The position numbers and the translations under genes are program-made. Below the pieces are notes generated by a model, which saw only the letters and a list, made by a program, of their open reading frames with translations, was not told the DNA's origin and made no database searches. Shown here one piece after another: positions 21,862-64,000 of a DNA stretch of 64,000 bases. Source of the DNA: Verrucomicrobiota bacterium JB024 (lineage in GTDB: Bacteria > Verrucomicrobiota > Verrucomicrobiia > Opitutales > Cerasicoccaceae). The first letter of the stretch is position 1; each line of letters starts with the position of its first letter. The DNA lies in the NCBI GenBank assembly GCA_030673825.1, contig JAUTCS010000088.1, positions 62,001-126,000 on the forward strand, read 5' to 3'.

Positions 21862-21864
21862 GAC

Positions 21865-28175: not shown

Positions 28176-28265
<90 letters not shown>

Positions 28266-36851: not shown

Positions 36852-36889
36852 CGGATTCTTTTGGACTGGCCCATTCTTTTGCTTGAAAA

Positions 36890-36906: not shown

Positions 36907-36950
36907 ATTTTCGGCGCCTTTTTCCTCCCCTTGAAGGGAAAAGCGAGCAT

Positions 36951-39872: not shown

Positions 39873-40034
39873 GGTGAGATCTATGTAACGCACCCCCCAT
39901 AGGGATATCGAGACGAAACGACGGAGAAGTTGAAAGCGTGCAGCAGGAGGACATTCGCCGATTGATCAAATACCCGCCAGGTGCATGCTTGTGAATCGTT
40001 CGGACGCCTATAACCTTCACGCCACCTTAATAAG

Positions 40035-42781: not shown

Positions 42782-42797
42782 GGGCGCCGGAGCGCCC
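42782..42797 (-). terminator. Hairpin terminator after SRPBCC gene
   Basis: On the minus strand GGGCGC-TCCG-GCGCCC is followed by GTTTTCC, 24 bases after the stop of the SRPBCC gene. The T-run is short, so strength is uncertain. Confidence 0.5.
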
Positions 42798-42820
42798 ATC
42801 AACCACCTTCCTCTCGTGAA

Positions 42821-43279: not shown

Positions 43280-43298
43280 CAATGATAGCTGTTTGGGG

Positions 43299-43733: not shown

Positions 43734-44043
43734 GATTAAGGGAGGGTTCGTGTGAGAGGTCAGTCCGGGGGGTACCTGTCGATGGTGTCACACCGGTCGC
43801 ATAGAGTATGTAAACGAAGTCACCCGTGCCTACCATTTTTCAAAAATTTTCCGTCTTTTCACATAGGCACCCCAGATCGGCCCGGAAATTCACCCAGGAT
43901 ACCATTCGATTGGCTGTTTTTCCTGAAATGCCTCCGCCTTCTTACCAAGGAAGCCAGTGATGCCGCGGAGCGCTCGGCGGGAAAACACGGTAACAACGGG
44001 TGTACGTTCTGCCTCCAAAGACAGGCCGACCGTGTGACGTGAT
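43734..44043. other. Intergenic stretch between VOC gene and metR
   Basis: About 310 bases. It presumably holds the VOC promoter (on the minus strand). I see no ORF with family features, no strong hairpin with a T-run and no repeat. Confidence 0.4.
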
Positions 44044-44955: not shown

Positions 44956-44967
44956 GGCGTTTTTAAA

Positions 44968-44986
44968 CCATGAGCAAAACTCATGG
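44968..44986. promoter_or_regulatory. CCATGAG-N5-CTCATGG palindrome, candidate MetR operator
   Basis: A perfect 7-5-7 palindrome (spacer CAAAA) lies 13 bases upstream of metR and about 84 bases before metE. A second TGAA...TTCA pair lies closer to metE at about 44992-45014. Both fit LysR-type T-N11-A sites. Confidence 0.55.
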
Positions 44987-45069
44987 ATACGTGAAAACAT
45001 ACCATTTTACTTCATAGATTCAAGCTGGTATTATCGGGGCACATCCTAACCCGAAAGCATAACGAACCT

Positions 45070-47382: not shown

Positions 47383-47408
47383 CCATCGACCATCGCTAAC
47401 TGAAAAAC

Positions 47409-47434
47409 GGAGGGAGGATAGCCATCCTCCCTCC
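47409..47434. terminator. Bidirectional terminator, metE and 61-residue gene
   Basis: GGAGGGAGGAT, loop AGCC, ATCCTCCCTCC: an 11-pair stem, preceded by AAAAA on the plus strand and so followed by a T-run (GTTTTTC) on the minus strand. It lies between the converging metE and the small gene at 47444. Confidence 0.75.
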
Positions 47435-47443
47435 TGCTATGCA

Positions 47444-47629
47444 TCAGTGATAATTGCGCCGTGAAACTTCTTCGCGCCAGAGCTTGCGGGCTATCGGCGT
47501 CAGTTCGCCCGGCTTGATGCGCATGAGTTCTTTCTCGGGCATCTGCTGGTAAGTTTCACGCAACGTGTCCTCGGTCACCGACGAACCAACAAAAATGTCC
47601 ACCAGCGACTTCCAAAGTCGTTTAAACAT
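47444..47629 (-). CDS. Conserved-looking small protein, 61 residues
   Basis: A short protein with hydrophobic start (MFKRLWKSLVDIFVGSS) and a helical, charged rest with LRETYQQMPEKELMRIKPGEL and ARKLWREEVSRR. GGAGG stands 13 bases before the ATG and a strong terminator follows, so it looks like a true one-gene unit. I do not recognise the family; the N-terminus could be a membrane-touching amphipathic helix. Confidence 0.6.
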   Translation of the reverse strand: MFKRLWKSLVDIFVGSSVTEDTLRETYQQMPEKELMRIKPGELTPIARKLWREEVSRRNYH

Positions 47630-47745
47630 ATGATCTTGCCTCCGTTTGGCCTGTCCCCGGTCAGGGATTGGCCATGGGTTTTTGTCTGTCGATAAGATAC
47701 GGCTGAGCTGTCTCTACGATTTCGCAGTCGCAGTTCAGTCTACAA

Positions 47746-48159
47746 TCAGCTTGAACACAGGGGAGGGGCACGAGCCCGCCAAAGCTCGCTGAACGGCGAG
47801 TGTGGCAAAACAAAAACCACGCTGACCGTCGGGCGGCTGAGGCGACGCTGCAGGGGCGAAGGCATGTCCACCGCATCAGCGGGACCGGTCGAGATATCCG
47901 GGCCGGGCTTAAAGGCGGGTGGACGTTGTTCACGGGGATTCAGCCCGATCAACGGAGTCTCCGCCGGAAGCGAAGAAACTTCTTTCGGGTCGTGGGCATG
48001 AGGGAAAAATGCCGAGGTATTCTCGCCTGTGAATCCCCTGCCATCGTAGAAGAACTTGTAGCCCAGTACACCGAGCAAGCAAAACGCGAACCACAGCATC
48101 ACGACGCCCACATGGCGGCGTGATAAACCCGAACTTATCTGCAATCGCGGCTTCAACAA
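47746..48159 (-). CDS. Single-pass membrane protein, hypothetical
   Basis: A 137-residue protein with a basic N-terminus (LKPRLQISSGLSRRH), one membrane helix (VGVVMLWFAFCLLGVLGYKFF) and a hydrophilic, proline-rich outside part. The start is a TTG at 48159 preceded by GAGGA at a good distance. No family recognised. Gene density around it is low and the base use is normal, so I consider it real but unproven. Confidence 0.5.
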   Translation of the reverse strand: MLKPRLQISSGLSRRHVGVVMLWFAFCLLGVLGYKFFYDGRGFTGENTSAFFPHAHDPKEVSSLPAETPLIGLNPREQRPPAFKPGPDISTGPADAVDMPSPLQRRLSRPTVSVVFVLPHSPFSELWRARAPPLCSS

Positions 48160-48518
48160 TAAATCCTCAGACCGCCCATTCAGCGGAAGTCACCCGGCAT
48201 GGCAAGGCCCAATCCTTGCTGTCCGATGTCCTTTTTACGGCAACAGGAGTTCCTTCTTATACTGGCTTCGGACACAACATCCACAGGCATACGCCGTAAA
48301 CATATAGCAGGAGCGCACCTTCTAGGCTCAGTGCGCAAACCTGCTCATGTCATCAGGCTCGTTTACGGAGCCCGGCGGCGTAGCGGGATTCCCCCACGCA
48401 TGAATAGTCATGAGCGTGGCCATAATTTACACGAAACGCCATCATAAGCATCGTTTCTCACTTTTCTTTGAATGGCGAGGTACATAGGGTAGGTGGAAAC
48501 GACCTTGCTCTTTCACTC
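48160..48518. other. Intergenic stretch upstream of the sensor kinase
   Basis: About 360 bases without a convincing gene. An 82-codon plus-strand frame (48199-48447) has no family look and unlikely composition. It probably holds the promoters of the two divergent genes. Confidence 0.4.
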
Positions 48519-49622
48519 ATGCTGACACCAACTAATGCCGCCGAACGCCATCGCCTTTTCTGGGGTCTTCAGTGCGCCGGCTGGGGCGGGACCTTGTTAC
48601 TGGGCCTGGCCTTTGTCAGCACCGGCTACCTGCCGTGGCGAGATGCATTGATCATCGGCCTATTCCGGACCGGGTTTGGCTTCGGGGCAACCTGCCTTTT
48701 GCGACTGGGGTACCGTTGGTTGCGCCTGCATCCCGGCAACGTCTGGGCCTGGGGCGGGGGCATTTTTGTGTTCTGCGGGGTATTGGCGGGCATCGACTGT
48801 CTGCTGACAACGTCTGTCGTCGGGCAGGCCGGAGTCGATCTTTCCCATCCGAAAGTCGCCCAGTTCCTGGACGGAAGCCTGATCCTGCGCTGGCTGCTGT
48901 ACTGGCTGTGGTCGGTGCTTTACTTCGGCATCACTCACGCGCTGGATATGCAGCGCACCCGCGTCCGGTTGGCCGAGGCCGAAGCTGCCGCCCGTACGAG
49001 CGAACTGCAGGCACTGCGCGCTCAGATCAATCCGCACTTTTTGTTTAATGCGCTTGGTTCTATTCTGGCGGACTCGGAAAACGCCGCCACCGTCCGCCAT
49101 CTTACGCTGGCCCTGGCCGACTACCTGCGCTTTTCCTTCCAGGTGCGCGGAGACTATGAACCCTTGGGCACCGAACTGCACGCACTCGAAAATTACCTGC
49201 GCGTGGAAAAGGCGCGCTTCGAGGAAAACCTCGAATACCGGATCGATGTTCCGACCGTTCTCCGCCAGAGCCCAGTCCCGCCCGCGCTGGTCCTGCCCCT
49301 CCTGGAGAACGCCATCAAATATGGACAGCGCTCGAGCATCCGTCCCTTGCGCCTGGCGATTTCCGCGCAACTCGCCAACGGGGAACTCCATGTCGCGGTC
49401 ACCAATTCCGGCGAATGGATCGAAGAGACAGATGGTGCATCGACCCGCACCGGACTGGCGAACTTGCGTCGCCGCCTGGAACTGCTTTATGGGAACCGGG
49501 CTAGGCTGATCACGAAACACGGAAACGGGGAAGTCTGCGTCAGCGTCTTTCTTCCGTTAGCGGAGGGCAACGGCAAGGGTCAGGCCGCCCTTGATCACTC
49601 CCGGGAAGCCGCCGTATCATGA
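48519..49622 (+). CDS. LytS/AlgZ-type sensor histidine kinase
   Basis: A 367-residue membrane kinase. About four hydrophobic helices (residues 15-145) lead into a short coil (LAEAEAAARTSELQALRAQ) and the His_kinase domain: phosphorylated H173 in INPHFLFNALGS, then the ATP-binding N-box LLENAIKYGQ and the GLANLRRRLELLYG motif. It forms a pair with the LytTR regulator whose ATG overlaps its stop. The signal sensed is unknown; the start ATG at 48519 is set just before the first helix. Confidence 0.93.
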   Translation: MLTPTNAAERHRLFWGLQCAGWGGTLLLGLAFVSTGYLPWRDALIIGLFRTGFGFGATCLLRLGYRWLRLHPGNVWAWGGGIFVFCGVLAGIDCLLTTSVVGQAGVDLSHPKVAQFLDGSLILRWLLYWLWSVLYFGITHALDMQRTRVRLAEAEAAARTSELQALRAQINPHFLFNALGSILADSENAATVRHLTLALADYLRFSFQVRGDYEPLGTELHALENYLRVEKARFEENLEYRIDVPTVLRQSPVPPALVLPLLENAIKYGQRSSIRPLRLAISAQLANGELHVAVTNSGEWIEETDGASTRTGLANLRRRLELLYGNRARLITKHGNGEVCVSVFLPLAEGNGKGQAALDHSREAAVS

Positions 49623-50401
49623 AAGTCCTGCGCGCCCTGATTGTTGACGACGAACGTCCGGCACGGCGCTGGTTGCGCGACCTGCTGCTCGCCCATCCCG
49701 AGATTCAGGTCGTCGGCGAGGCCGACGGCGTCAACGCCGCCCTCGACCGGGCCGGTGAACTGAAACCGGACGTACTCTTCCTCGACGTGCAGATGCCGCC
49801 TGGCAGCGGATTCGATGTGCTGCCTCATTTGAAAATCCGCCCCCGGATCGTTTTTGTCACCGCCTACGAAACGTTCGCCGTCAGGGCTTTTGATGCGAAC
49901 GCCCTCGATTACCTGCTAAAGCCGGTCCATCCCGACCGCCTCGCTGAAACCGTCCGGCGCCTGGCCACTGACGTGGAAAAGGAAGCATTTACTGCGCTCC
50001 CCGGAGAAGTCGCTCCACCCGCCGAAGCCTCCCAATCGGATGAGACCCGACTCTCGCTCAACGATTATGTCCCCCTGCGCGATCGCGGGCTCTTGCGCGT
50101 TGTCAGTGTCGCCGACATTGCCGCGATCGAAGCCGAGGGCGCGTACTCGCGGATCATGATCAGTGGGCAGGAGCCGATGCTGGTGCTGCCTTCGATCGGA
50201 GAATGGGAGTGCCGCCTGCCCGCCCCGCCGTTTCACCGCCTCGATCGTTCCCGCCTGGTCAACCTCTCATTCGTGGCCGAAGTCAAAGCCCTCACCCGTG
50301 ATCGCGCGGATGTTACCCTGCGTGGAATCGCCTCCTCTCTGTCTTTGGGCCGCGCCGGCTCGCGGCGCCTGAGGAAGCTGTTGTCCCAGTTCCACGCCTG
50401 A
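49619..50401 (+). CDS. LytTR family response regulator
   Basis: A 260-residue response regulator. The receiver domain has acidic DDE near residues 10-12, phospho-acceptor D56 in VLFLDVQMPPGSG, and the conserved FVTAYETFAVRAFDANALDYLLKP end (split: FVTAYETFAVRAF, NALDYLLKPV). A LytTR DNA-binding domain follows (IAAIEAEGAYSRI, FHRLDRSRLVNLSFV). It is coupled to the LytS-type kinase by an ATGA overlap. Targets may be the sulfatase and beta-barrel genes downstream, but this is only from proximity. Confidence 0.95.
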   Translation: MKVLRALIVDDERPARRWLRDLLLAHPEIQVVGEADGVNAALDRAGELKPDVLFLDVQMPPGSGFDVLPHLKIRPRIVFVTAYETFAVRAFDANALDYLLKPVHPDRLAETVRRLATDVEKEAFTALPGEVAPPAEASQSDETRLSLNDYVPLRDRGLLRVVSVADIAAIEAEGAYSRIMISGQEPMLVLPSIGEWECRLPAPPFHRLDRSRLVNLSFVAEVKALTRDRADVTLRGIASSLSLGRAGSRRLRKLLSQFHA

Positions 50402-50617
50402 ACGGACGGTGAGGCCGCCGCAACCTGCCGGGCTGCGTGCCATTCGCTGGCTGATTCGTGCATGCCCGCGCCCGTTTCATGCAAGTTCTCGTGACAAATG
50501 GCCCTGTCGCAGTCAGGTACAGAGGTGTTCTGTTCTGCTTTCGCTCTCACAGCCCCGAGGGCAGTTTAATCACACATCCCGCAAGCCTCTCCGCCCTCTC
50601 TGAACGCACTCCAATCT

Positions 50618-52570
50618 ATGTCTCAGAAAAACGATTTCGGTTCGCTCAACCTCTCGCGCCGCAATTTCCTGCGTTCGTGCGCCGTCGTCGGGGCCGCTGC
50701 CGCAGGTGGCCCCCTCTTTAATATCTTCGTCCCCAGCGCCCGCGCCAGTACGGAGAACATTCCGCCCGCATCCTCCGGCATGAATCTGCTTATCTTCATC
50801 ACCGACCAGGAGCGGGCCCTGCAATGGTTCCCCCCGGGATGGGCCGCGACCAACCTGCCGGCGGTCACCTCCCTGCGGGCGAATGGCGTCTCCTTTGAGC
50901 GCGCCTACACGGTATCGGCCATGTGCACACCTTCGCGCAATGCCTTGTTCACCGGCCTCTTCCCCGCCCAGCACCGCTCTTACGACACGCTGACCGAGGG
51001 CTTCCCGCAGTCGGAGGCCGAGCACCAACTTGATCCCTCCCTGCCGAACCTGGCGACCATCCTGAAGGCCGCCGGCTACGAGGTCGTTTACAAAGGCAAG
51101 TGGCACCTGAGCAAGGGCGTCGAAGGCTGTGACGGCGACCTGCAAAGCGACGACATCTCCCGCTACGGCTTCGACCAGTGGGACGCCCCCGACGCGGGGC
51201 AGGACGTGAAAATCGAGAATTACGGCGGAGGCACCGCCAACAACGACACACGCTACGTGGACGATGCCATCGCCTACCTGGAGAGCAAACGCGACAACCC
51301 GGGCAACAAGCCTTTCTGCCTCGTCGTCTCTCTGGTCAACCCCCATGACGTGCTCGGCTATCCCGGCAACCACGGCGAGGGCGGCTACCAGGCTTCGGAC
51401 CTGCTGGGAGACATCGGTCTGCCGCCCAGCGTCTACGAAGATCTTTTTAGCAATTACAAGCCGTCCACGCACTATCAGTTGCTGGCCCGCCTGAACGGGC
51501 TGGGTCCGATCACCAACGACAACCAGCGCCTCAACTACATCAACTTCTACGGCAATCTTATGAAAACCGTGGACGGCCACCTGCAACGGCTGCTCGACGT
51601 GTTTGCCGAAAACGAAGACGGTGAGACCCTGCGCGCCAATACGCTCATCATGCGCACCTCCGACCACGGGGAAATGGGCATGGCCCACGGCGGCCTTCGT
51701 CAGAAGTCCTTCATGTGCTACGAGGAGGCCATCCGCGTCCCGCTGGTCTGGTCAAACCCCGAACTGTTCCCCACCGGACGCGTGTGCCCGCATCTGGTCT
51801 CGCACGTGGACCACATCCCCACCATCTGCTCGCTCCTGGGTGTCGCCAACTGGCAGCAGACCTACAGCTTCGCGGGGGTCGATTACAGCAGCCTGATCCT
51901 CGATCCGGGAGCGGCCGCGGTTCAGGATTACGTCCTTTTCACCTACGACGATATCTATGCCGGGCAATCCGCCGAGGGCACCGACGGCAACGGCATCCTC
52001 CCCCCACCCAACCGCATCCAGATGATCCGCGAGGATCACTACAAGTATGCGCGTTACTTCGACGGGCTCGGCGAGACCCCGGATCAGCAGGAGTTCTACG
52101 ACGTGCGCACGGCTGGCCTGGGGGGCACCGATACGGACCCCGCGACCGGCCAGCCGGTCGAGTTGCGCAACCTCTCCCTCTGGGCCGAGGCGCTGCGCCA
52201 GGCAGACAATGAGGACACCCTCGCCACCCCCGCCCAGGAGGCCAAGCGCGTCCAGATGATGCAGCGCCTTTCCGATGTGGTGGCCGAACGTCTGCAACCG
52301 GGTCCGCCGGTCCCCTCCCCTGTTCCGGCCGGAGACGTGAGCATCACCACAGTCACCGTCACCGACGAGGACAGCGAAGAGGACAACGACATGATCCAGA
52401 TAAAATTCCTCTCCTCCTGGGGCACCGATTACCAACTCCAATTCTCGGATGACCTGGAAAACTGGAGCGATATCGGAGATCCGCTTCCCGGCAATAACGG
52501 CCCCATCCTTTATTGCGAACCGCTGCCTGCCGGGACCGCTTTTTACCGCGTTGTCTCAACCTCCGCCTGA
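50618..52570 (+). CDS. Tat-exported sulfatase with C-terminal FYRV-type domain
   Basis: A 650-residue sulfatase with a Tat signal (LSRRNFLRSCAVVGAAAAGG, residues 12-31). The formylglycine site is CTPSR with Cys103; LIFITDQ near residue 62 and SDHGEMGMAHGG supply metal ligands, and YKGKWHLSKG is typical of choline/glycan sulfatases. The last about 75 residues form a separate module with YQLQFSDDLENWSDIGDPLP and a FYRVVS end, a tail I have seen in many secreted Verrucomicrobiota proteins. It removes sulfate from an extracellular or periplasmic substrate, unknown. Confidence 0.92.
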   Translation: MSQKNDFGSLNLSRRNFLRSCAVVGAAAAGGPLFNIFVPSARASTENIPPASSGMNLLIFITDQERALQWFPPGWAATNLPAVTSLRANGVSFERAYTVSAMCTPSRNALFTGLFPAQHRSYDTLTEGFPQSEAEHQLDPSLPNLATILKAAGYEVVYKGKWHLSKGVEGCDGDLQSDDISRYGFDQWDAPDAGQDVKIENYGGGTANNDTRYVDDAIAYLESKRDNPGNKPFCLVVSLVNPHDVLGYPGNHGEGGYQASDLLGDIGLPPSVYEDLFSNYKPSTHYQLLARLNGLGPITNDNQRLNYINFYGNLMKTVDGHLQRLLDVFAENEDGETLRANTLIMRTSDHGEMGMAHGGLRQKSFMCYEEAIRVPLVWSNPELFPTGRVCPHLVSHVDHIPTICSLLGVANWQQTYSFAGVDYSSLILDPGAAAVQDYVLFTYDDIYAGQSAEGTDGNGILPPPNRIQMIREDHYKYARYFDGLGETPDQQEFYDVRTAGLGGTDTDPATGQPVELRNLSLWAEALRQADNEDTLATPAQEAKRVQMMQRLSDVVAERLQPGPPVPSPVPAGDVSITTVTVTDEDSEEDNDMIQIKFLSSWGTDYQLQFSDDLENWSDIGDPLPGNNGPILYCEPLPAGTAFYRVVSTSA

Positions 52571-52701
52571 AAGCTCTGCGCACAGCGATAGGTTTAAAAT
52601 ACCTTGCCATCAGGAAGGGACGGCACGTAACGCTATCTCCCGATCTTAGACCGCAAAGCCCTGAAACGATTGTTAATATCAAGAAAGTGACGCCTCTTGC
52701 C

Positions 52702-53526
52702 ATGAGAACAGGCAGTTCGCTGAAATACCTCCGTTCCTTGCTTATAGGCGTCTGTTCGCTTGCCGTGAATGATTGCGTCGCGGCGGATACCGTCGAAACG
52801 GAGGCGGGCCCGTATATCGGCATATTCGGCGGGGTCGGCTCGTCCCCGTCAACAAGCCTGCGGCAGCAAGGGGCCGTTTACTTAAATCCGCCCAACAGCT
52901 TTCCCATGCTCCCCATTGATGCCAATGGCTCGACCGACGGCAGCAATGGCATCCCGGTAGCCGGCGCCCACATCGGCTACGAATGGGATCATTGGGAGAT
53001 TGCTCCCGGTTGGGGCCTTAAACCCGCCCTTGAACTTGAAGGGATTTATATCGGTGAACATTCGCCGGTCGGTACCATGCCGGTTCACCCCAGCTTCCTG
53101 GGCACGCAGTATGTGACGGTTCCCATCACCACCGGCGTCGTCCTGCCCAACGCGGTTCTTGTTCTTCAGACTCCGTACTCCGACAAGATTTTTCCTTACT
53201 TCGGGCTGGGAGCCGGAGGGGCCTTTGTCTCCATCAGCGGATCGGATTCCGCGAACCCATCCGAACCCGGCATCAACCATTTCAATTCGGCCCCGGACGC
53301 CTCCGACTTCGCCTTCGCGTGGCAGTTGAAAGCCGGCATCAAAGCTGAAATATTCAAAAACACCTACCTGTTTCTGGAATACCGGTACCTCTCGATCGAT
53401 CCGACCAGCTATACATTTGGCTCCACGGACTATCCCGGTGTTCACCTCCCGACCACGAGCTGGAACGTCAATCTTGGCCGCCAAGAATACAATTTGTTCA
53501 TCACCGGACTCCAATACAAGTTCTGA
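52702..53526 (+). CDS. Outer-membrane beta-barrel protein
   Basis: A 274-residue protein with a signal peptide (MRTGSSLKYLRSLLIGVCSL, cut likely after CVAA) and a pattern of alternating strands ending in YNLFITGLQYKF, the C-terminal aromatic end typical of barrels. PYIGIFGGVG, IGYEWDHWEIAPGWGLKPALE and FPYFGLGAGGAFVSIS fit the OMP_b-brl/OmpW-like group. It probably sits in the outer membrane. It starts 131 bases after the sulfatase stop. Substrate or function unknown. Confidence 0.85.
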   Translation: MRTGSSLKYLRSLLIGVCSLAVNDCVAADTVETEAGPYIGIFGGVGSSPSTSLRQQGAVYLNPPNSFPMLPIDANGSTDGSNGIPVAGAHIGYEWDHWEIAPGWGLKPALELEGIYIGEHSPVGTMPVHPSFLGTQYVTVPITTGVVLPNAVLVLQTPYSDKIFPYFGLGAGGAFVSISGSDSANPSEPGINHFNSAPDASDFAFAWQLKAGIKAEIFKNTYLFLEYRYLSIDPTSYTFGSTDYPGVHLPTTSWNVNLGRQEYNLFITGLQYKF

Positions 53527-53582
53527 CCCTTTATTCCTGTCCGATTGCCAGCCCTGCCGTGTATGCGGTTATCCATACGGGG

Positions 53583-53770
53583 TCAGCCCGATCGGGTACC
53601 TGCACGGCATCCGCATCGAGCGTGCGATAAAACCTCCTGCGCCACAGCGACCTGGTAATCGCCGCCATTGCAGAAGAAGTCGGCGAACACAACGCTATGT
53701 ACTTCTCCCGACTGTTCAAGCGCCTCATCGGCACAACCCCGAAGGTACTGCGGACACCACAAGGTCTAGA
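53583..53770 (+). pseudogene. Remnant of an AraC family DNA-binding domain
   Basis: Two adjacent frames spell a broken AraC C-terminus. First YLHGIRIERAIK, then, after one extra base near 53630, LLRHSDLVIAAIAEEVG followed by MYFSRLFKRLIGTTPKVLR. Read together these make a normal second AraC helix-turn-helix, but no N-terminal part and no start can be found upstream, so the gene is truncated and frameshifted. A sequencing error could explain the frameshift but not the missing front. Confidence 0.7.
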
Positions 53771-54160
53771 GCATCTTCGGTTTAAGGCGCGATTAGCGGA
53801 TCAACTTGACTTCTCACCTCAGTGCTGGCATAAATACCAAGTAACACTGCTGATGAAAGCATTCTGTCTCATATTTCTTAACGCACGGCAACGCCACCGG
53901 GTTCTGATTCGAACGGCCCGTCCTGGTTTGCCCGGCGCTGTCAACTGAGCAGAAGGAAGCCCACGTAAGGGTAATCCACGCATAAGAGACATCGCCGGGT
54001 AGCTCCGGCTTGGGTGTCTAACCCAGGGATACCGGCGCGAATACGTCTATCCAAGACCCCTTGGATATAGCCTTTGCCTATAGCAGTGCCGTCGCGGGCC
54101 TGCGTTTAACCGACTGCCAGCACAACTGGCGCATAATGCTTCATATTTACCATGATAACC
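53771..54160. other. Intergenic stretch after the AraC remnant
   Basis: About 390 bases with no recognisable gene; some short open stretches look like eroded coding sequence. No IS ends, no direct repeats and no attachment site are evident. It may be decayed remains of the same event that broke the AraC gene. Confidence 0.35.
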
Positions 54161-54604
54161 ATGAATACTAAACAAATATTTATATCAAAATCTGATTACC
54201 TCCGCATAAAAGCTCTCATCACTGATCCCGATTTTGCCTACATTCACAATGGCCGAACAGCCTCCCTCAAGGGCGAGTTGGAAAGAGCTGCCGTGGTCGA
54301 GGATTCCGAACTGTCTGCAAACCGGGTCGGACTAAACTCCAGAGTAGTGATCAAAGACCTGAGAACGCATGAGAAGGAGGAATACCAGCTCACTATGCCA
54401 GAGGATATGGAGGATGACGAAAGCAATATCTCTATCTTGTCTCCAATCGGAACCATCCTCCTGGGGTATGCTGCAGGAGATGAGATTACCTGCGACACCC
54501 CAGGCGGCTCCCGACAGATTCTTATCGAATCAGTTAAGCGAGGCACTCAGGTCCCCAGAAGTCAGCGCTCTGTCATCGACGAAATACTCAACAGAAGCCT
54601 GTGA
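54161..54604 (+). CDS. Rnk/GreA-GreB C-terminal domain protein
   Basis: A 147-residue protein with a short N-terminal part and a Gre-factor C-terminal domain: VVEDSELSANRVGLNSRVVIKD, EEYQLTMPEDME, then NISILSPIGTILLGYAAGDEIT, typical of Rnk (regulator of nucleoside diphosphate kinase). It binds RNA polymerase near the secondary channel in studied cases. It is the first of three genes running to 55644. ATG 54161 or 54152 could start it. Confidence 0.88.
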   Translation: MNTKQIFISKSDYLRIKALITDPDFAYIHNGRTASLKGELERAAVVEDSELSANRVGLNSRVVIKDLRTHEKEEYQLTMPEDMEDDESNISILSPIGTILLGYAAGDEITCDTPGGSRQILIESVKRGTQVPRSQRSVIDEILNRSL

Positions 54605-54646
54605 CCTACAGCTCGAAACTGCGAATAACCATTGAATGAATACCAT

Positions 54647-55006
54647 ATGAAAGCACACACCCTTTTTATACTAAAACCATGCGAGCTCAACGCGGAGAAA
54701 ATAACCGCCTACTGTAGGGATAGCGCGCAAGTCTTGGGCTTGTTCCAGTTCTTCCCCTACCTGAAGGATCATGTCGAGGTTCGTGTATTAAATGACCAAG
54801 AGCCCCGCACTGAACTGGTTCGCATGCTGGGCGGAAGCAACCAGTCCTGCCCCTTGCTATTACTCAATGCAGAACTGTCAGCAATACCGCCCCTCGTAAA
54901 TATCATGCAGGCAAATGGGCGCCGCTTCATCACGGGGACACAGCAAATTTCCCGATATCTGGCAGCTACCTACGGCTCCGCAGTTAATCAGGGGAAATCA
55001 GCATGA
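54647..55006 (+). CDS. DUF3088 family protein
   Basis: A 119-residue thioredoxin-fold-like protein: HTLFILKPCEL at the start, VLGLFQFFPYLKDHVEVRVL, NQSCPLLLLN and a final ITGTQQISRYLAATYG match DUF3088, a family of unknown function. Its stop overlaps the HAD gene start by four bases. ATG 54647 is the first codon before the fold. Confidence 0.75.
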   Translation: MKAHTLFILKPCELNAEKITAYCRDSAQVLGLFQFFPYLKDHVEVRVLNDQEPRTELVRMLGGSNQSCPLLLLNAELSAIPPLVNIMQANGRRFITGTQQISRYLAATYGSAVNQGKSA

Positions 55007-55644
55007 AGCATTTTCTTTTTGATCTCGACGGCACCCTTGGAAATACCCTTCCGCTGTGTATCCAAGCCTTCCAGGAATCCTTACAGTCGGTCACCGGACA
55101 GAGCTTCAGCGGAGAGGAGATTTCCGCAACCTTTGGTCCCTGTGAACTGGGGACAATTCGCGCACTCGCACCCAGCAAGGAAACCGAGGCCCTGGATAGC
55201 TATTTGAAGCGGTACCGCGCCCTGCACGCCAACTGGTCGAGGCCATTCGACGGAATCTGGGAAATAATGGATTACCTGCATGAGCGAAAGGCTTTTATCG
55301 GATTGATAACATCGAAAGGGTCCCCGAGCACACATATCACCCTGAAGCAATATGGAATGGAAGATACATTCAGGGCCGTAAAAACAGGGGTTCCCAACGG
55401 ACCCATAAAAGACCTACAAATCAAAGAGACATTGCGGGATTTCATGATGAGGCCGCAGGAAGTTTTGTATGTAGGAGACTCGCCGATCGACATCGCCGCC
55501 TCGCGTGCAGCAGGCATACGTGTCGCAGCCGCAGCTTGGGCTCCCACCTCTGACGCAGACCTTCTCCGTTCGAAGAATCCGGACTTCTTGTTCACCTCAG
55601 TCAAAGATTTCTATTCATTCATTAGAACGACGCTCCACGGCTGA
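55003..55644 (+). CDS. HAD family hydrolase (phosphoglycolate phosphatase-like)
   Basis: A 213-residue HAD phosphatase of subfamily IA. Motif I is FDLDGTLGNT with the nucleophile and general-acid aspartates, motif II is GLITSKG, and motif IV is VLYVGDSPIDIAASRAAG. The cap is the helical insert at about residues 15-80. It cleaves a small phosphoester; the substrate is not readable. It ends the three-gene run with the Rnk-like and DUF3088 genes, and a strong terminator follows about 100 bases on. Confidence 0.93.
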   Translation: MKHFLFDLDGTLGNTLPLCIQAFQESLQSVTGQSFSGEEISATFGPCELGTIRALAPSKETEALDSYLKRYRALHANWSRPFDGIWEIMDYLHERKAFIGLITSKGSPSTHITLKQYGMEDTFRAVKTGVPNGPIKDLQIKETLRDFMMRPQEVLYVGDSPIDIAASRAAGIRVAAAAWAPTSDADLLRSKNPDFLFTSVKDFYSFIRTTLHG

Positions 55645-55978: not shown

Positions 55979-56566
55979 TCAGCGTTTCTTGAGGTTTGCC
56001 TCAGTGGAAAATGCGCCGGGAATCCAGTTCGCAATCGGCGGTGTAGTCCCTACGTTGCGCAGGTCCTCAATTGTGTAGAACGGTGTCGGCTCAAACTCGG
56101 ACAGTATGGCAAGAACACTCTTTAGTCGCTTACGCTTCGATATGACCAGGAATACGTTGACCTTTCCTTTCAGCCCGTCGGCATCCACAGAGGTCACACC
56201 AAAACCGTCCCCAGAAATGCGACTCCTGAGTTGTTCTTCATCGTTGCTCTGTGCAATTACGCGTATCAAAACATAGCCTAGAGCAAGTTTTTCTTCGATC
56301 CACATGCCAACGTAAGTTCCAGCCGAAAAACCGCCAGACCAAGCAAGAATTGACGCGATATTGGTTAGGTTTTCCATCACTTGTGTGATCGCCACTAACC
56401 AGATAGTTATTTCAATAAATGCTAATATCGGCACCGTTTTTTTCATTCCCCTGTAAATGAGAATATGCCGCAGCGTAGCCATGCTGACGTCTGTCAGCTT
56501 AGCGATAAAAATCAGTGCTGGAATAATAACCCAGCTTACATAATCAAATGAATATATATAGTCCAC
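55979..56566 (-). CDS. UPF0316 family membrane protein (DUF5698/DUF2179)
   Basis: A 195-residue protein. The first half (residues 10-105) has three hydrophobic helices with AKLTDVSMATLRHILIYRG and FIEITIWLVAITQVMENL; the second half is a soluble DUF2179 domain (GFGVTSVDADGLKGKVNVFLV, then FYTIEDLRNV), the fold also found in YitT-type proteins that may bind nucleotides. The role is unknown. It may share transcription with the 41-residue gene 62 bases downstream. Confidence 0.9.
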   Translation of the reverse strand: MDYIYSFDYVSWVIIPALIFIAKLTDVSMATLRHILIYRGMKKTVPILAFIEITIWLVAITQVMENLTNIASILAWSGGFSAGTYVGMWIEEKLALGYVLIRVIAQSNDEEQLRSRISGDGFGVTSVDADGLKGKVNVFLVISKRKRLKSVLAILSEFEPTPFYTIEDLRNVGTTPPIANWIPGAFSTEANLKKR

Positions 56567-57449
56567 TTTGAGGTAGAGTTAAAGTTAATATACCCCCAGC
56601 TTTCATGATGGCTATGGCAGCAATTTACGCCAGTAGGCCAGGACTGATCGTCCATCTGCTCTCAGAAGCTGCTCCAATTAACACAGTTCAAATACAGATT
56701 GAAAAGGGAACTCACTGATCGATCAGAGACCAGTGACGAATCCGCCAGGAAATCAATTATTAAATCCGATGAACACCAAGAAGAACGAACCAAGACTGCC
56801 TCGTCCTCAAGCGTTCAACGGCCAATCGCGAGAAAGATCAGATAGCATTTCTCACGTACAAGCCTGTAAAATATGTTAGTGGGAGGACTCATTCCAAACC
56901 TAATCCATATAATAAAAATACTAAGTCAAGAAATCATCATTAAAATGAACAATTATGTTCATATTAGGAAAGTAATAACCCCATACATTAGGGTGGTTCG
57001 TTTTTCTCTAAACGAAAATTAAGCGAGTGACATTTTCCGGAGGTTCCCCTGCCTTGCAGTATACTTAATTTGATTCTTTTAAGGATGTTGACGGAAGGCG
57101 GTCGGCGATGGAGCACAGCAGGCATGAGGTTTATATTTACGCCTGCCAGAAACGGGGCAATACATCGATATTTCGTTATGCAAGCAAACGACTATCGACC
57201 AGAATCCTTGGTGCGGAACTTCACGCGCTGAGGCCATGGGGCACCTGAACATGAGCATGCTTTCCGCGGACAGCAATTTGAAAGAAAAAGCTCTTAAGAA
57301 GTTCTTGAACAGCGACTTTTCTCGTCTCTGTGGTCATCAAATGATGGCAATTGCTGGAGTGGTAAGCTTGCCAAATGGATGGTATTTCCTTTCAGGGAAC
57401 ATTATTTTTAGCTTTATCTAATAATCTAGATTGTATTGTATCGTAATCT
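56567..57449. other. AT-rich stretch without a recognisable gene, upstream of jetA
   Basis: About 880 bases with lower GC than either neighbour. Frames up to 66 codons exist on both strands (57079-57276 minus, 57236-57421 plus) but resemble no family I know. A perfect palindrome AATCTAGATT lies about 20 bases before jetA. It could be remains of a mobile element or the leader of the defence operon. No tRNA, repeat pair or IS end seen. Confidence 0.4.
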
Positions 57450-58949
57450 ATGGAAACGGCACCGACGTTGGCTCGCAGGTTAATCGTTGAGCGACTAAAC
57501 CATCCGGCCTGGCTGCTGCTGGCTGCGACACGGGGACCACTCATGTTGGCCAGCCTGAAGCCCTTGTTTGAGAGCAGTTCATCTGAAATCACCTTGGAGG
57601 ATGCGCGCGAGCAATTGGCTAGCCTCCTGTCTCAACACGCGAACGACCCAACTTACGGCATCGACTCCGATGACTTCCGTGCGCTGGCGCGCCGGGAGTT
57701 GCGCGACTGGATCAAGCGCGGCTTGCTGGTTGAGCGAAGCGGTATCCTATTCGCGACCGACGCACTGCAGGCAACGTTTCGCTTCCTGGAAACGATTGAG
57801 CAGCGCGTAATGACAACGACGGCTTCGCGCTTGGCCACCGTCCAGCAAAAGATAGAAGTGCTGCAAGCCAATCTCAACCCTGATCGTGAATCACGCGCTG
57901 CTAATATTCAGCGCAAGATGACTGAACTCGAACAGGAGCTGGAGCGTGTACGACAGGGCTACTTTGAGGTCCTTGAAGGTGAGCGTGCGGTCGAGGAAAT
58001 CCGTGAACTCTACAGCCTGGCCATGAGCCTGCGGGCTGACTTTCAGAGAGTGGAGGACTCCTACCGGGAGGCCGACCGCAGCCTACGGCAGTCGATCATC
58101 GGGGATGAGCAAAATCGCGGCGAAGTGGTGGATAAGCTCCTCGCCACCGATGCTGCGCTTCTGGAAACGCCGGAGGGTCGTGTCTTCGATGGCTTTTACC
58201 GTCAAATCCAGCTTGGCACCGACCTAGATGTCATGCGAGGCCGCCTGCGCGCCATACTCGACCACAACGCCTCCATACGAGCCCTCGACCGTCGGCAAAC
58301 TCAGGACTTAAAGTTCCTGGTCTCTCACTTGATCGACGAATCCAAGAGCGTCCTCCAGGCGCGTTCGCAAGGTGAGCGCGACGTCAAAGGCTTTATCAAA
58401 TCAGGACTCGCAGCAGAGAATCACCGCGTCGGTCAACTGCTTCAGCAAGTGCTGGAGGCGGCACTCACCATGGACTGGGGAAAACAATCGGTGCGCCGAG
58501 CGCCCGCGCCGCTGCCTCCCATCGCGCCTTCTCTACCCAGCCTGCCGGTGGCGGGCAGGCTCTGTTATAAGGAGATAACGGATATCGAAGAAGCCGCTTT
58601 GAATCTTGAGCAGCAGCAAGGTAGCCTCGACCAGCTGGAAGAGGACTTTGTGGCCTGTGACGACGATCTGGATACCCTGGTGCTTTATCAAAACACCCTC
58701 GATTATTTGCGTAAAAACAGGAGCTCTCATCGCCTCAGTGAATTGGCCACCGCCTTGCCGCCGGAATATGATGTGGAGACATTGGCCTACTGGCTAGCAC
58801 TGGCACGTGAAGCGGAATGCCAAGTAGGGCCAGACATGGAAACCTTCACTCTTGAATATGAATACGAACGCGCGGTTGACTTTACCGCACCGCTTCTTGC
58901 TCTCGATGCAGAGGCTGTGAGCGCGGTTGACCCAGAACACTTGGTATGA
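57450..58949 (+). CDS. jetA: Wadjet type I JetA (MukF/MksF-like, DUF3375)
   Basis: A 499-residue protein with the DUF3375 layout: N-terminal RRLIVERLNHPAWLLLAATR and PLMLASLKPLFE, a winged-helix part (DDFRALARRELRDWIKRGLL), a coiled-coil centre (about residues 125-200) and a C-terminal region ending in a kleisin-like end. JetA is the kleisin that joins the JetC ATPase and contributes to recognition of small circular DNA. The order jetA-jetB-jetC-jetD with four-base overlaps is that of Wadjet type I. ATG 57450 is the only good start; its promoter was not found. Confidence 0.9.
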   Translation: METAPTLARRLIVERLNHPAWLLLAATRGPLMLASLKPLFESSSSEITLEDAREQLASLLSQHANDPTYGIDSDDFRALARRELRDWIKRGLLVERSGILFATDALQATFRFLETIEQRVMTTTASRLATVQQKIEVLQANLNPDRESRAANIQRKMTELEQELERVRQGYFEVLEGERAVEEIRELYSLAMSLRADFQRVEDSYREADRSLRQSIIGDEQNRGEVVDKLLATDAALLETPEGRVFDGFYRQIQLGTDLDVMRGRLRAILDHNASIRALDRRQTQDLKFLVSHLIDESKSVLQARSQGERDVKGFIKSGLAAENHRVGQLLQQVLEAALTMDWGKQSVRRAPAPLPPIAPSLPSLPVAGRLCYKEITDIEEAALNLEQQQGSLDQLEEDFVACDDDLDTLVLYQNTLDYLRKNRSSHRLSELATALPPEYDVETLAYWLALAREAECQVGPDMETFTLEYEYERAVDFTAPLLALDAEAVSAVDPEHLV

Positions 58950-59695
58950 ACGATTACTTCGACCAGCGACTACGATCACAGGAAATTCTGGATAGCAACA
59001 CCGGGGATCGCCCCGAAATGGACAGATCCCTCAATACCCAGGAAGAAAAGGATTCAATCGTCTCCCAAGAAACCGCTGCACAAATTAAAGCCGCAGTGCA
59101 GGAACTCCTCAAATACGGGTTGGTTGAAGCGTCGGCAAAGCCGAACATATACCGCGAACTCAAACAGAACCCTGAGACGATAAAGCGGACCCTGGAACCC
59201 TTCGATTTACAAATGGCCCTGGATGAGGTACGCGGGATTGCGTTTCTCGAAGTGCTACCCGCCGGGGAGGAGGCTGATGCCAACGATCCCTGGCAGCATC
59301 CTCTGGTCAGACGCCAGCGCCTGACCACGGAGCAATCTTTGCTGGTTGCCATACTGCGCCAGGCCTACGTTGCTTATGAGCAAACTCACGGCATTGGTGC
59401 TTCCGACGCCCGCATCGATTTCGAGGAGTTACTGGCCCAGTTTTCGGTTTACATGGGTTCCTCCGGCAGCGACAAAGCTGACACGGAGCGGCTCCGGCGC
59501 GTTCTTACCCAACTGGTAACACATGGCATCGCGAGTGAGCCGGACAAGGAAAACCAGGTTGCGATCCGCCCCATCATTGTGCATCTGGCCAATCCTGAGC
59601 ACCTAGCCCTGTTGCTGGAACACTTTCGCAAGCTGGCCAGCAACTCGCTCACCAGCCATACAGAGTCTGAGCCAAATGTGGGGGACGAGGCATGA
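58946..59695 (+). CDS. jetB: Wadjet type I JetB (MukE/MksE-like, DUF4194)
   Basis: A 249-residue protein of the DUF4194 family: AAQIKAAVQELLKYGLVEAS, IYRELKQNPETIKRTLEPFDL and DEVRGIAFLEVLPA, then a winged-helix region with QRLTTEQSLLVAILRQAYV and DTERLRRVLTQLVTHGIAS. JetB binds the kleisin JetA and stabilises the JetC complex. It overlaps both neighbours by four bases (ATGA), so the operon is translated as a unit. Confidence 0.92.
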   Translation: MNDYFDQRLRSQEILDSNTGDRPEMDRSLNTQEEKDSIVSQETAAQIKAAVQELLKYGLVEASAKPNIYRELKQNPETIKRTLEPFDLQMALDEVRGIAFLEVLPAGEEADANDPWQHPLVRRQRLTTEQSLLVAILRQAYVAYEQTHGIGASDARIDFEELLAQFSVYMGSSGSDKADTERLRRVLTQLVTHGIASEPDKENQVAIRPIIVHLANPEHLALLLEHFRKLASNSLTSHTESEPNVGDEA

Positions 59696-62600
59696 AATCA
59701 AGCGAAGAAGCCGTACTGTTCACCTTAGAGAGAGCCGCCTTTCAACTGCGTCGCTTCGAGGTTTTCAACTGGGGGCCTTTCTCCGGTATGCACGCCGCCG
59801 AAATCGATCCACAGGGGACGGCGATTATTGGGATGACCGGTAGCGGAAAAACTACCTTGATTGACGGCTTTGTTACCTTACTCACCGAGTATCCCAAATA
59901 CAATCTCGCTTCGACCGGCGGCCATGAAAGTGACCGCAGCCTCATGGCTTACGTGCGCGGCGTCGTCGGCTCCGGTAACGACAGCGGTGATGCTACTCAC
60001 ATCTCGCGCAAGGGCAAAACAATGACTGGGCTCTGTGCCACCTACAGCGACGGGCAGGAAGAGCTTCGGCTGGCCGCGATTATCTGGATAGATGGCACAA
60101 GCTTCGCTGTGAGCGATCTCAAACGTGCCTGGCTCTTTTCGCGTGATCCGCGTCACTCGTTGGAGCAATGGCTAAGCGTTCATAGTCAGGGAGGTCTGCG
60201 ACTTCTCAAGCAACAGCTACGCGATCAGGACGAAGCCCAGCTCTACGACGCGTCCAACGGAGGCAAGCGCGCCTATCTGGCACGCGTCCGCAGTTTCTTT
60301 GAAGTCTCCGATAACGCTTTCACCCTGCTAAACCGCGCAGCTGGACTCAAGCAACTCAACAGCATCGACGTCATTTTTCGTGAATCAGTGCTCGATGACC
60401 GATCGGCTTTTGACCGCGCTACAGAGGTTGCGGACGACTTTAATAACCTTGCGGAAATCCATCAAGAGCTTGAGACCGCAGAACGCCAACAGCAGTCGCT
60501 TTTACCCGTAAAAAAGCTTTTTGCGGATTATCATGCCATCAAAGAAGAACTCGCCCGCAAGCAAAAGTTGTCCGACCTGCTGACGGTTTGGTTCGCTTTG
60601 CAGGGAAAGCGCCTATGGCAGTCTCGGCTGGTCGAACTCGAAGCCAGCGAGCATGCCCGGAAAAAGGAACTCGACGAGGCGCAACAAGCAGTGGATAAGG
60701 CCAAGCGCGAGGTCGAGGTGTTGCAGGAAAAATACCTCAAGGCGGGAGGCAGCGACGTGGATTCACTACGACAGCTTATCGAAACCTATAGCAAGGACAC
60801 CGTTCGACTTAGAGGCAACGCAACGGACTATCAAGCCTTGTGCCAAACATTCGATTTGCCTCACGAGATTGCTGAAACGCCTTTCGCCAATGCGCAGGAA
60901 AAGGCAAAATCGATTTGCGAGCGATTGCACGGGGAGCAACTGACCGCGAGCGAGTTGGCTTACAAAACTGGCGGTGATTCAAAACAAGCCGACGCAAAAC
61001 AGGAAGAACTGCAATCCGAGCTGAAAGCGGCGCAGGCCAAACCTGACTCGAATATTCCCAGCCACTACCAACGCTTTCGCGATCTCCTGGCGGCGGAGTT
61101 GAATGTCGACACCGAAGCCCTACCCTATGCAGGCGAACTGGTGCAGGTTCGCGAAAGTGAAAGCAGTTGGCGTGGCGCGATTGAGCGTGCCTTGGGTGGC
61201 AACCGGCTTCGATTGCTCGTTCCGCAGGATAAACTAAAGACCGCGCTGCGCTGGGTAAATACCCACGAACACGGTCTGCATATTCGCCTGCTCGAAGCAG
61301 GCTCAAGCGTGAAATCAGCGGCGGACTTTTTCAACGACGGATTTCTCCGCAAGCTGGAATACAAACCGCATCCGCTGCGGGATGCCCTGAAAGTATTTTT
61401 GGCCTCCTACGACCTGCACTGCGTGGATTCGCCTGAGGAGTTGGAACGCACCCCACACGGACTGACCCGCGCGGGCCTCATCTCCGGAAAACGCGGGCTC
61501 TTTGAAAAGAAAGACCAGCGGCGGCTCGACCAGGACTGGTGCACGGGCTTCAGTAATCGCGACCGCCTGGCCAGCCTGAACCAACAGCTCACCGAGGCCA
61601 AGCGTCAGGCCGAGGCCGCAGACAAGGCGTTCTCGGATGCGCGGGAACATGACCAACGCCTTAAGCAGCAAATCCAACTCCTCGACACTTTGCTCAAGCT
61701 GAGCTTCGAGGAAATCGATTATCCTGCCTTAGAAGCAAAAGTTGCAGAAGGCGAAACGAAGCTCAAAGAGCTGACCGACCCACAATCAGATGCTGGACGC
61801 GCACTCAAGGATTACGAAGACAGTAAAAAGATAAAGGACGGTTTAGACAAGGCGCGCGACGAAGCACTGCTTGCGCATGATTCCGTGAAGCGAAAAGCCG
61901 ATGGCGCTCGAAAACAAATTGAAGCCTGCATAGAGCGTGTCGGCGATGGCTTCTCTATTGAAGACCAGCAACTGGCTGATGCACAGCTTTCCATCAGTAC
62001 TCGGGTCGAGGCAGAAAACCTGACAGCGGAAGAAAATCGTCAACGGACGGAATTGGCGTCAGCGATTCAGCAGCAGCAAAGTAAACTCAACGAACAGCAA
62101 AGCAGCCTTGTGCGCGCCATGATGAAAGCCAAAGAAGCTGATACTGGCGCGCTGGCCGAGGCAGGCACTGACATGGAAGACATCCCTGCCTATCTTTCCC
62201 GGCTTCGCGTGCTGACCGAAGAAGCCTTACCGGCCAAACGTAAACGCTTCCTGGACTACCTTACACGCTCCTCAGACCAGGGCGTAAACCAACTCCTGGC
62301 ATCTGTGGAAGAGGAAGTCGCTCGCATTGAGGAACGCATCCACGATCTCAACCAAAGCCTGGAGAGTGTGGACTTCAAGCTAGGGCGCTTCCTGAAGTTG
62401 GAGACGCAAAAGGTGGTGCATGAAAGCCTGCGCAGCTTCGAACGCGCCCGCAAACAGCTACGAGCGGCCGCGCTTCGCACCGAAGACAACGAGGGGCACT
62501 ACCGTGCGCTGCAGGCGATCATCCTCCTGTTGCGCGAAGCCGTGGACAAAAAACACACAGTCGGTGCGCGTGCCTTGCTCGATCCACGCTACCGAGTGGA

Positions 62601-63036
62601 GTTTCATGGCGTGGAAATCGAACGCTCAAGCGGCGAGGTGAAGGAGCGCTTCAAGGGCTCTCAAGGAGGCTCCGGAGGCGAGAAAGAGATTATTGCCAGC
62701 TACATCTTAACCGCGTCGCTCTGCTATGCCCTGAGCCCAGAGGGGGGACGATTCCCGCTGCATAGCACCATCGTGCTGGACGAGGCCTTTTCTAAAAGCT
62801 CTCGCGCAGTAGCCAACCGGATTGTCAATGCCTTGCGGGAGTTTAAACTGCACCCCATTTTCGTCACACCGAACAAGGAAATGCGCCTGCTGCGCACGCA
62901 CACACGCTCCGTGGTGTACGTCCACCGTAAAGAGTCGCGAGCAACCTTGGCCTCCATTAGCTGGCGCGAGCTAGAAGAACGTCTCGACAGGAAAAGCGTA
63001 TCACCCGAGGCGACGGATACCACAACCAAAACGTAA
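59692..63036 (+). CDS. jetC: Wadjet type I JetC (MukB/MksB-like SMC ATPase)
   Basis: A 1114-residue SMC-type ATPase. Walker A is GMTGSGKTT at residues 47-55; the ABC signature is QGGSGGEKE near residue 990; Walker B is STIVLDEAF with D1030 and E1031. Between them are two long coiled coils (about 300-390 and 630-900) around a hinge region near 455-600. JetC extrudes DNA loops with JetA and JetB; plasmid-sized circles are then cut by JetD. The size matches the family. The C-terminus is charged. jetD starts on its final stop (TAATG). Confidence 0.95.
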   Translation: MKSSEEAVLFTLERAAFQLRRFEVFNWGPFSGMHAAEIDPQGTAIIGMTGSGKTTLIDGFVTLLTEYPKYNLASTGGHESDRSLMAYVRGVVGSGNDSGDATHISRKGKTMTGLCATYSDGQEELRLAAIIWIDGTSFAVSDLKRAWLFSRDPRHSLEQWLSVHSQGGLRLLKQQLRDQDEAQLYDASNGGKRAYLARVRSFFEVSDNAFTLLNRAAGLKQLNSIDVIFRESVLDDRSAFDRATEVADDFNNLAEIHQELETAERQQQSLLPVKKLFADYHAIKEELARKQKLSDLLTVWFALQGKRLWQSRLVELEASEHARKKELDEAQQAVDKAKREVEVLQEKYLKAGGSDVDSLRQLIETYSKDTVRLRGNATDYQALCQTFDLPHEIAETPFANAQEKAKSICERLHGEQLTASELAYKTGGDSKQADAKQEELQSELKAAQAKPDSNIPSHYQRFRDLLAAELNVDTEALPYAGELVQVRESESSWRGAIERALGGNRLRLLVPQDKLKTALRWVNTHEHGLHIRLLEAGSSVKSAADFFNDGFLRKLEYKPHPLRDALKVFLASYDLHCVDSPEELERTPHGLTRAGLISGKRGLFEKKDQRRLDQDWCTGFSNRDRLASLNQQLTEAKRQAEAADKAFSDAREHDQRLKQQIQLLDTLLKLSFEEIDYPALEAKVAEGETKLKELTDPQSDAGRALKDYEDSKKIKDGLDKARDEALLAHDSVKRKADGARKQIEACIERVGDGFSIEDQQLADAQLSISTRVEAENLTAEENRQRTELASAIQQQQSKLNEQQSSLVRAMMKAKEADTGALAEAGTDMEDIPAYLSRLRVLTEEALPAKRKRFLDYLTRSSDQGVNQLLASVEEEVARIEERIHDLNQSLESVDFKLGRFLKLETQKVVHESLRSFERARKQLRAAALRTEDNEGHYRALQAIILLLREAVDKKHTVGARALLDPRYRVEFHGVEIERSSGEVKERFKGSQGGSGGEKEIIASYILTASLCYALSPEGGRFPLHSTIVLDEAFSKSSRAVANRIVNALREFKLHPIFVTPNKEMRLLRTHTRSVVYVHRKESRATLASISWRELEERLDRKSVSPEATDTTTKT

Positions 63037-64000
63037 TGAAGTCGCCTTCCGAGCTTGCCGCTAAGCTAGCCCGTCAATGGGACAATGCAGATCTGCGCGA
63101 GCAGCGTCTCACACAACCTCAGGCTTGGCCCCTTTCACTCAGTATCGGCAAACCAGGCGCTGCTGTGATTAGAAACGATTTGAACCGGGTCCGAACTCAC
63201 CTCCAGGCATGGCAAGCCTGCCCTATCGGTGAGGTCGAGTGGCATACAGTGAGTTACCGCGATGCGGCCGACAGTATCGTAGTCCCACTGAAATGGCAGT
63301 TGCGATCACCCTCGGAATGGATCGCCGCCAGCGGCCAGGCGTCCATTACCAATGAATACGAGACACTAAATGAACTCTGCCAAAAGACGAACCCACGCTA
63401 TCATCGGCTGTGGATGCGCCAACGCTCCTGGTGGCGAGGCAAGCCCATTGACGAAATACTACTAGCCAGTTCCCTGGCCGATCAACTCGGCCCCGGATGC
63501 GCTGCGGGCGCCCCCCTCAGAACACTCTCTGGCATCGGCAACGACACCAAATTCTTTGAGCGCAATCGGGCGCTCTTGCTTGCTCTGTTGGATCTTCGTT
63601 TCGAAGGCGAGGCTGGCAAGCTCGGCCTGGAAGGATTTCTCGGAGCCATGCCCGAAGGCGAACACTGGCTCCTGGTGGCCGATCTGGATGGCGCATTATT
63701 GCCCTTTGAACTATTACGTGTTCGTGCCTCTGAACTTGAAGGTGGAGCCATTTTACCCGGTCAACAGTTTCTGGTTGTGGAAAACGAGCGTTGCCTCTTC
63801 ATGCTTCCAAAGCTGCCAGGCGTTTTGGCTATACTGGGCAGCGGCCTGAACCTCCGCTGGCTCTCAGCTCCTGCCTTTACGGATCGCGAAATCGCCTACT
63901 GGGGCGATATGGACACCTGGGGTCTAACCATGCTCAGCATGGCCAAATCGTATCGCCCCAACCTGCGACCACTTTTGATGAACCGAGAACTGTTCGATAA
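63036..64000 (+). CDS. jetD: Wadjet type I JetD nuclease (partial, runs off the window)
   Basis: The frame opens with ATG at 63036, overlapping the jetC stop, and stays open for 321 residues to the window end. The N-terminal DUF3322-like part has WRGKPIDEILLASSLADQL and FFERNRALLLALLDLRFEG; the TOPRIM-type catalytic part follows, with E249 in VVENERC and D291/D293 in YWGDMDTWGL as likely metal ligands. JetD is the nuclease subunit that cuts circular DNA. About 60-90 residues are missing beyond the window. Confidence 0.93.
   Translation, partial: MKSPSELAAKLARQWDNADLREQRLTQPQAWPLSLSIGKPGAAVIRNDLNRVRTHLQAWQACPIGEVEWHTVSYRDAADSIVVPLKWQLRSPSEWIAASGQASITNEYETLNELCQKTNPRYHRLWMRQRSWWRGKPIDEILLASSLADQLGPGCAAGAPLRTLSGIGNDTKFFERNRALLLALLDLRFEGEAGKLGLEGFLGAMPEGEHWLLVADLDGALLPFELLRVRASELEGGAILPGQQFLVVENERCLFMLPKLPGVLAILGSGLNLRWLSAPAFTDREIAYWGDMDTWGLTMLSMAKSYRPNLRPLLMNRELFD

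Follow-up and report, generated by a model that had tools for sequence, protein, structure and literature searches.

An apparently intact type I Wadjet operon at the end of a tRNA-Ser-anchored island in a Verrucomicrobiota bacterium, with mosaic divergence from its copy in a second species

According to PMC10586767, the JetABC proteins of Wadjet are a dimeric SMC motor for which loop extrusion has been proposed, and JetD cuts the DNA once extrusion of a circle is complete, whereas linear DNA and circles larger than about 100 kb are spared. The same paper describes an IFDR motif at the N-terminus of JetB that contacts JetD. In the JetC protein of E. coli, replacement of R524, K591 and K601 by alanine is described as weakening obstacle bypass (PMC12647877). 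In MksG of C. glutamicum, cutting is reported to be crippled upon loss of E236 and D279, and the glutamates E349/E351 are also named (PMC10123090).

The operon described here occupies positions 57450-64196 and consists of four genes in the order jetA-jetB-jetC-jetD with overlapping reading frames. The window, which is the whole stretch of 64,000 nucleotides that was analysed, represents positions 62001-126000 of the 176,464 bases of contig C88 of Verrucomicrobiota bacterium JB024, a marine bacterium and probably a relative of Cerasicoccus, and the end of jetD was read past the window edge. All four genes lie on the forward strand. jetA (57450..58949, 499 residues) encodes a kleisin-like subunit with DUF3375, jetB (58946..59695, 249 residues, overlapping jetA by 4 bp) a KITE-like subunit with DUF4194, jetC (59692..63036, 1114 residues, overlapping jetB by 4 bp) an SMC-like ATPase, and jetD (63036..64196, or 13036-14196 of locus L002, 386 residues, overlapping jetC by 1 bp) a Toprim nuclease. 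The window, ending at 64000, holds 321 of the 386 residues of JetD, and the last 65 were taken from the host contig. The genes are full length both in the host and in genome G003, which belongs to a second species of the genus, with no internal stop codons in either.

The initial annotation had read this locus as a complete type I Wadjet system. This is borne out by the gene order, the overlaps, the profile matches, the nearest structures and the sequence motifs. The families DUF3375, DUF4194 and DUF3322 that it had named are all matched in Pfam: JetA matches DUF3375 with E=4.9e-86 (289.9 bits against a curated cut-off of 28.6), JetB matches DUF4194 with E=1.1e-27 (97.3 bits against 32.7), and JetD matches DUF3322 (4.5e-38) and also JetD_C (1.7e-24). 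JetC is matched by AAA_29 (5.1e-16) and SbcC_Walker_B (4.2e-16). The best PADLOC model for each of the four subunits is that of type I Wadjet, with E-values of 1.4e-186 for JetA, 2.7e-81 for JetB, 0 for JetC and 3.7e-134 for JetD. At E<=0.01, JetB and JetD match type I Wadjet models only, and JetA matches these models and, weakly, LmuB. The sole PADLOC match to type II or type III is a weak one of JetC to type II, scoring 21 bits against 1340 for type I, and these types were rejected. A search of NCBIfam with the four proteins gave no meaningful match. The nearest solved proteins in the PDB for all four are the JetABCD subunits of E. coli GF4-3 and P. aeruginosa PA14 (JetA against that of GF4-3, 2.7e-136). 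A chance or partial match is ruled out by the profile scores and the full-length alignments. These sequence tests make the operon a textbook case of type I Wadjet, from a host that has not been studied before.

The motifs of JetC were read directly and flank a long central region: Walker A at residues 47-54, the signature SGGEKE at 994-999 and Walker B, which was specifically looked for, as IVLDEAF at 1027-1033. In JetD, residues E249, D291/D293 and E363/E365 were likewise read directly, the last pair being the remaining expected residues in the part of the protein beyond the window, where the gene stops at 64196. Neither of the two defects that the initial annotation had named as counting against it, a JetD end without these residues or a JetC without Walker B, is present. 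E249 is aligned with the position mutated in the E248A structure 8q72, and D291 with the aspartate of the MksG motif GDLD, which is D279 by counting 43 residues from E236. From the LEQE motif we infer that E363/E365 represent the MksG glutamate pair, the alignment with MksG itself ending at residue 329. The hinge-channel charges of E. coli JetC, R524, K591 and K601, are represented here by R532, K600 and R610, as found by alignment and a direct check, and the hinge looks like an open channel capable of obstacle bypass as in E. coli JetC. JetB starts with MNDYFDQR; both species have YFDQ in place of IFDR, with the F and D kept, so that this motif matches in part.

The operon forms the right-hand part of a 10.4 kb block (53789..64198) that is 96% identical between the host and Verrucomicrobiia bacterium isolate 5_bin.45 (G003 contig C24, JAUIAM010000011.1) and that ends 2 bp past the jetD stop codon. 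The JetD proteins are 97% identical. Core DNA of the host and G003, in contrast, is 76-80% identical, and a horizontal transfer of the block is argued from this difference. Core genes of the respective genome are present on each of the two contigs, which argues against a binning error. Both genomes are assemblies of many contigs, so that a misjoin at the block borders is possible. The block is the last and longest of four collinear pieces shared with G003 contig C24, the others being 31280-37106 (94%), 41989-42141 (93%) and 42347-42522 (86%). In G003 these pieces start about 100 bases after tRNA-Ser(GCT), a tRNA differing from that of the host. Less similar matches (79%) to 36876-37595 and 39600-40489 are found elsewhere on the same contig.

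Four genes travel with the operon in both species: a Rnk/GreA-like gene (54152-54604), a DUF3088 gene (54632-55006) and a HAD hydrolase gene (55003-55644) on the forward strand, and a divergent DUF5698/DUF2179 gene (55979-56566) on the reverse strand. The latter is separated from jetA by an A+T-rich stretch without a listed gene (56567..57449), which is preserved at 94-98% in G003. Just before jetA no convincing sigma-70-type promoter or Shine-Dalgarno sequence was seen; a promoter scan gave 9 candidates against 4.4 expected, none of them directly upstream of jetA. At its left border the block cuts off the remnant of an AraC-type HTH gene (53640..53788, forward strand, Pfam HTH_AraC E=3.1e-7). 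The right end of the block in G003 runs into an integrase that lacks its C-terminal part and whose frame continues into the reverse strand of jetD. Transposition by means of terminal repeats was rejected, there being no exact match of at least 8 bp between the borders (60 bp outside and 40 bp inside) in either genome. The truncated genes at both borders, together with the lack of flanking repeats, suggest that the borders are illegitimate junctions in a larger island. A repeat of the tmRNA 3' end was also considered as an attachment site in G003; with up to 3 mismatches, the only match in 60 kb was the gene itself.

The DNA upstream of the operon had been described in the initial annotation as recently rearranged. 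This holds for the surroundings, which are a patchwork mobile island with a break at 53789 beside the AraC remnant, but not for the DNA directly before jetA, where there is no break and where positions 56567-57449 are conserved.

Within the operon the divergence between the host and G003 is far from uniform. The two differ by 1.45% in 57450-58833, 16.06% in 58834-59107, 0.73% in 59108-59656, 10.12% in 59657-61998, 1.12% in 61999-64048 and 12.16% in 64049-64196, the limits of these tracts having been picked by eye from the list of differences. In an independent maximal-segment scan, the strongest cluster came out at 60309-61957; it scored 81, and none of 200 permutations exceeded 13.9. In jetC, 19.0% of third codon positions differ in codons 1-769 and 1.2% in codons 770-1114. 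This jump in silent change indicates the import of a diverged allele, that is, mosaic recombination. At the start of jetB and in the tail of jetD, where many of the changes alter the protein, a loss of constraint may contribute.

Alternatively, the divergent tracts of jetB, jetC and jetD might have changed faster under relaxed or diversifying selection rather than by recombination, a proposal that bears on the mosaic reading alone and leaves the identification as Wadjet untouched. The 21 amino-acid changes in the first 46 codons of jetB and the 9 in the last 17 codons of jetD are of the kind that such selection would produce. However, selection at the protein level leaves the jump in silent change in jetC unexplained, and at the end of jetA (58834-58949) just one of the 10 differences changes the protein, making this alternative unlikely. 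If a diverged allele was imported, as is preferred here, either species may have received it, since the two outgroups lie about as far from the one version as from the other. A broader and rather improbable proposal is that Wadjet operons swap the JetC head-to-hinge region, the JetB N-terminus that contacts JetD and the JetD tail as allelic cassettes between related copies while the rest stays nearly identical, perhaps escaping plasmid-borne inhibitors. In the literature searched, no paper joins Wadjet JetC with gene conversion, and one, whose abstract deals with mobile elements and resistance, touches on both Wadjet JetA and mosaic recombination; it is not claimed that such mosaicism is unreported. 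The sharp patchwork can be used to ask whether Wadjet systems exchange internal modules.

A 36-kb stretch begins at tRNA-Ser(GGA) (28176..28265, forward strand) and has the operon at its opposite end. The 3' end of this tRNA gene, from 28249, is repeated exactly over 17 bp to the right of the window, at 64426-64442, and thus serves as the left-hand repeat of the island. When up to 2 mismatches were allowed on either strand, 114,464 bp of contig held no further copy. The core DNA to the left of the tRNA, from 19210 or 19554, is 87% identical to G001, a genome of the same genus, and 76-80% identical to G003 contig C11. The match to G001 (19554-28422, 87%) ends 157 bases beyond the tRNA; comparison of the remaining 86 kb of the contig with 49 kb of G001 gave no match of at least 60 bases.

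A tyrosine recombinase gene (64500-65931, or 14500-15931 of locus L002) is situated just to the right of the second repeat, and hence outside the repeats. An intact copy in host contig C95 (9652-11150 of locus L045) has a 479-residue frame and lies directly beside tRNA-Ser(CGA); compared with that copy, the gene at 64500-65931 differs in length by one base near 64880, which breaks its frame. The two host copies, one frameshifted and one intact, are 89% alike, and each adjoins the end of a tRNA-Ser gene. A relative in G007, a genome of the same family, adjoins tRNA-Ser(TGA). Such recombinases beside several tRNA-Ser genes suggest that these genes are repeated landing sites in the family. The broken integrase could be either part of a second, tandem element or common to two elements. 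No intact integrase was found between the repeats when the open reading frames were read by eye, and since the integrase is frameshifted in the assembly, the island may no longer move.

The island has further features. Next to its tRNA-Ser edge, the region 28572-28954 holds a Guanidine-II (mini-ykkC) riboswitch (40 bits, gathering threshold 32), directly followed by a small membrane-protein gene that we take to be an SMR-type guanidinium exporter; a stretch 75% alike to this region follows tRNA-Ser(GCT) in G001. A nitric-oxide cluster (29587-35154) encodes NnrS-like, nitric oxide reductase subunit B-like and ScdA/hemerythrin proteins, and a stretch 94% identical to 29416-35192 is present in G002. 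The G003 counterpart of 31280-37106 lies near the Wadjet operon of that genome. The 11 kb at 42523-53788 contain metE and a gene for a beta-barrel protein as well as, judged by eye, a LysR-type gene, a LytS/LytR-like pair and a sulfatase-like gene. This segment separates pieces that are adjacent in G003, and was thus either gained in the host or lost in G003. In G003, tRNA-Ser(GCT) is immediately followed by a repeat of about 60 bases (3097-3160 of locus L035), partial copies of which occur by the dozen in G001 and several times in both G002 and G000.

A phage origin was rejected after a search of viral_contigs for relatives of JetD with six short patterns, suited to close relatives only, gave one pattern-matched stretch and 0 confirmed relatives. 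A plasmid origin was likewise rejected, the best of 10 PLSDB records for JetD being 43% identical.

Given a fragmented island and a frameshifted integrase, the operon might be no more than a passenger in decay, its function lost. The AraC remnant truncated at the left border and the damaged integrases, frameshifted to the right of the host operon and truncated at the right end of the block in G003, agree with such decay. The jet genes themselves do not: they are full length in both species, the key residues are intact in the host, the imported tract of jetC carries mostly silent change, and jetA has a dN of 0.005 and a dS of 0.069 between the host and G003. Because internal stops are absent and dN is smaller than dS in all eight genes compared, the genes appear to be maintained, and decay is considered very improbable.

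DUF3375 is found in 11 of the 54 genomes searched, counting that of the host; within the genus, 3 of 4 genomes have it, G001 being the exception. Since few genomes have this family and a member of the same genus does without it, the operon is taken to be dispensable. Each of the 4 genomes of the genus, including that of the host, has one ScpA, and the operon is thus not the sole condensin-type system of the host. These findings, and the fit of all four subunits to type I Wadjet models as best by far, make it extremely improbable that the operon mainly organises the chromosome as an additional, MksBEF-like condensin and cuts plasmids only as a secondary role, despite a weak match of JetB to the MksE family (1.5e-4, below the cut-off) and the description of C. 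glutamicum MksBEFG as a MukBEF homologue that acts on plasmids too (PMC10123090).

In a JetD tree of 59 rows (of 66 loci, 6 were left out for want of a JetD frame of 250 residues or more, and 2 by a 330-residue filter), the sequences from the window, G003, G007 and Cerasicoccus fall together with support of 100/100. This group is placed among Pseudomonadota, together with a Pirellulales row, with weaker support (85/84). The copies in G002, G009, G041 and G029 lie far off on long branches. The copy on contig C58 of G002 (locus L037), a species of the same genus as the host, is a second, very different Wadjet for the genus, its JetD being 31% identical over 220 residues, which indicates more than one acquisition of such systems within the genus.

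There is little doubt about the reading preferred here, in which an intact type I Wadjet is cargo of an island anchored at a tRNA-Ser gene, would act by the Wadjet mechanism, was transferred horizontally and was partly allele-exchanged. By homology, JetA, JetB and JetC would form a dimeric SMC motor that loads onto DNA and reels it into a loop. If the DNA is a small closed circle, extrusion would run to completion and the two motors would meet, upon which JetD, held through JetB, would be switched on and cut the circle. The chromosome and large plasmids would escape, extrusion never being completed there. On this reading the operon came to two species of the genus by horizontal transfer, with parts exchanged with a related allele. 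Resistance of the host to small circular plasmids, which the initial annotation had proposed, is accordingly a prediction that follows from work on homologues, as described in PMC10586767.

The new content is the island context and the mosaic structure. It is of modest interest, and nothing is changed in the known Wadjet mechanism. That one operon is nearly the same in two species illustrates concretely how anti-plasmid systems spread on islands, and a lineage of the Verrucomicrobiota now contributes a type I Wadjet that is clean and of full length.

Among the known systems, JetABCD of E. coli GF4-3 (PDB 8AS8, 8BFN, 8Q72) has the same four subunits at full length, with residues 14-1101 of JetC aligned and an E-value of 1.4e-111 for JetD. 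The catalytic residues are the same, as are the hinge-channel charges, its K601 being an arginine here. It comes from a different phylum, and its JetB N-terminus reads FFDK as opposed to YFDQ. JetABCD of P. aeruginosa PA14 (PDB 7TIL, 8DK1-8DK3), also a type I Wadjet, shares the subunits and motifs, with scores slightly below those of E. coli for all four subunits; the strain name behind these entries is that given in PMC10586767 and PMC10123090. Within the same family, the Wadjet loci of Cerasicoccus frondis (G008, locus L060) and G007 form the sister group in the JetD tree, with JetD 61-63% identical. There, the DNA comparison matches jetABCD only and shows neither the island nor the four genes upstream of the operon. 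MksBEFG of C. glutamicum is far more distant, its MksG aligning with residues 30-329 of JetD, including the metal-binding E and D, at E=1e-13.
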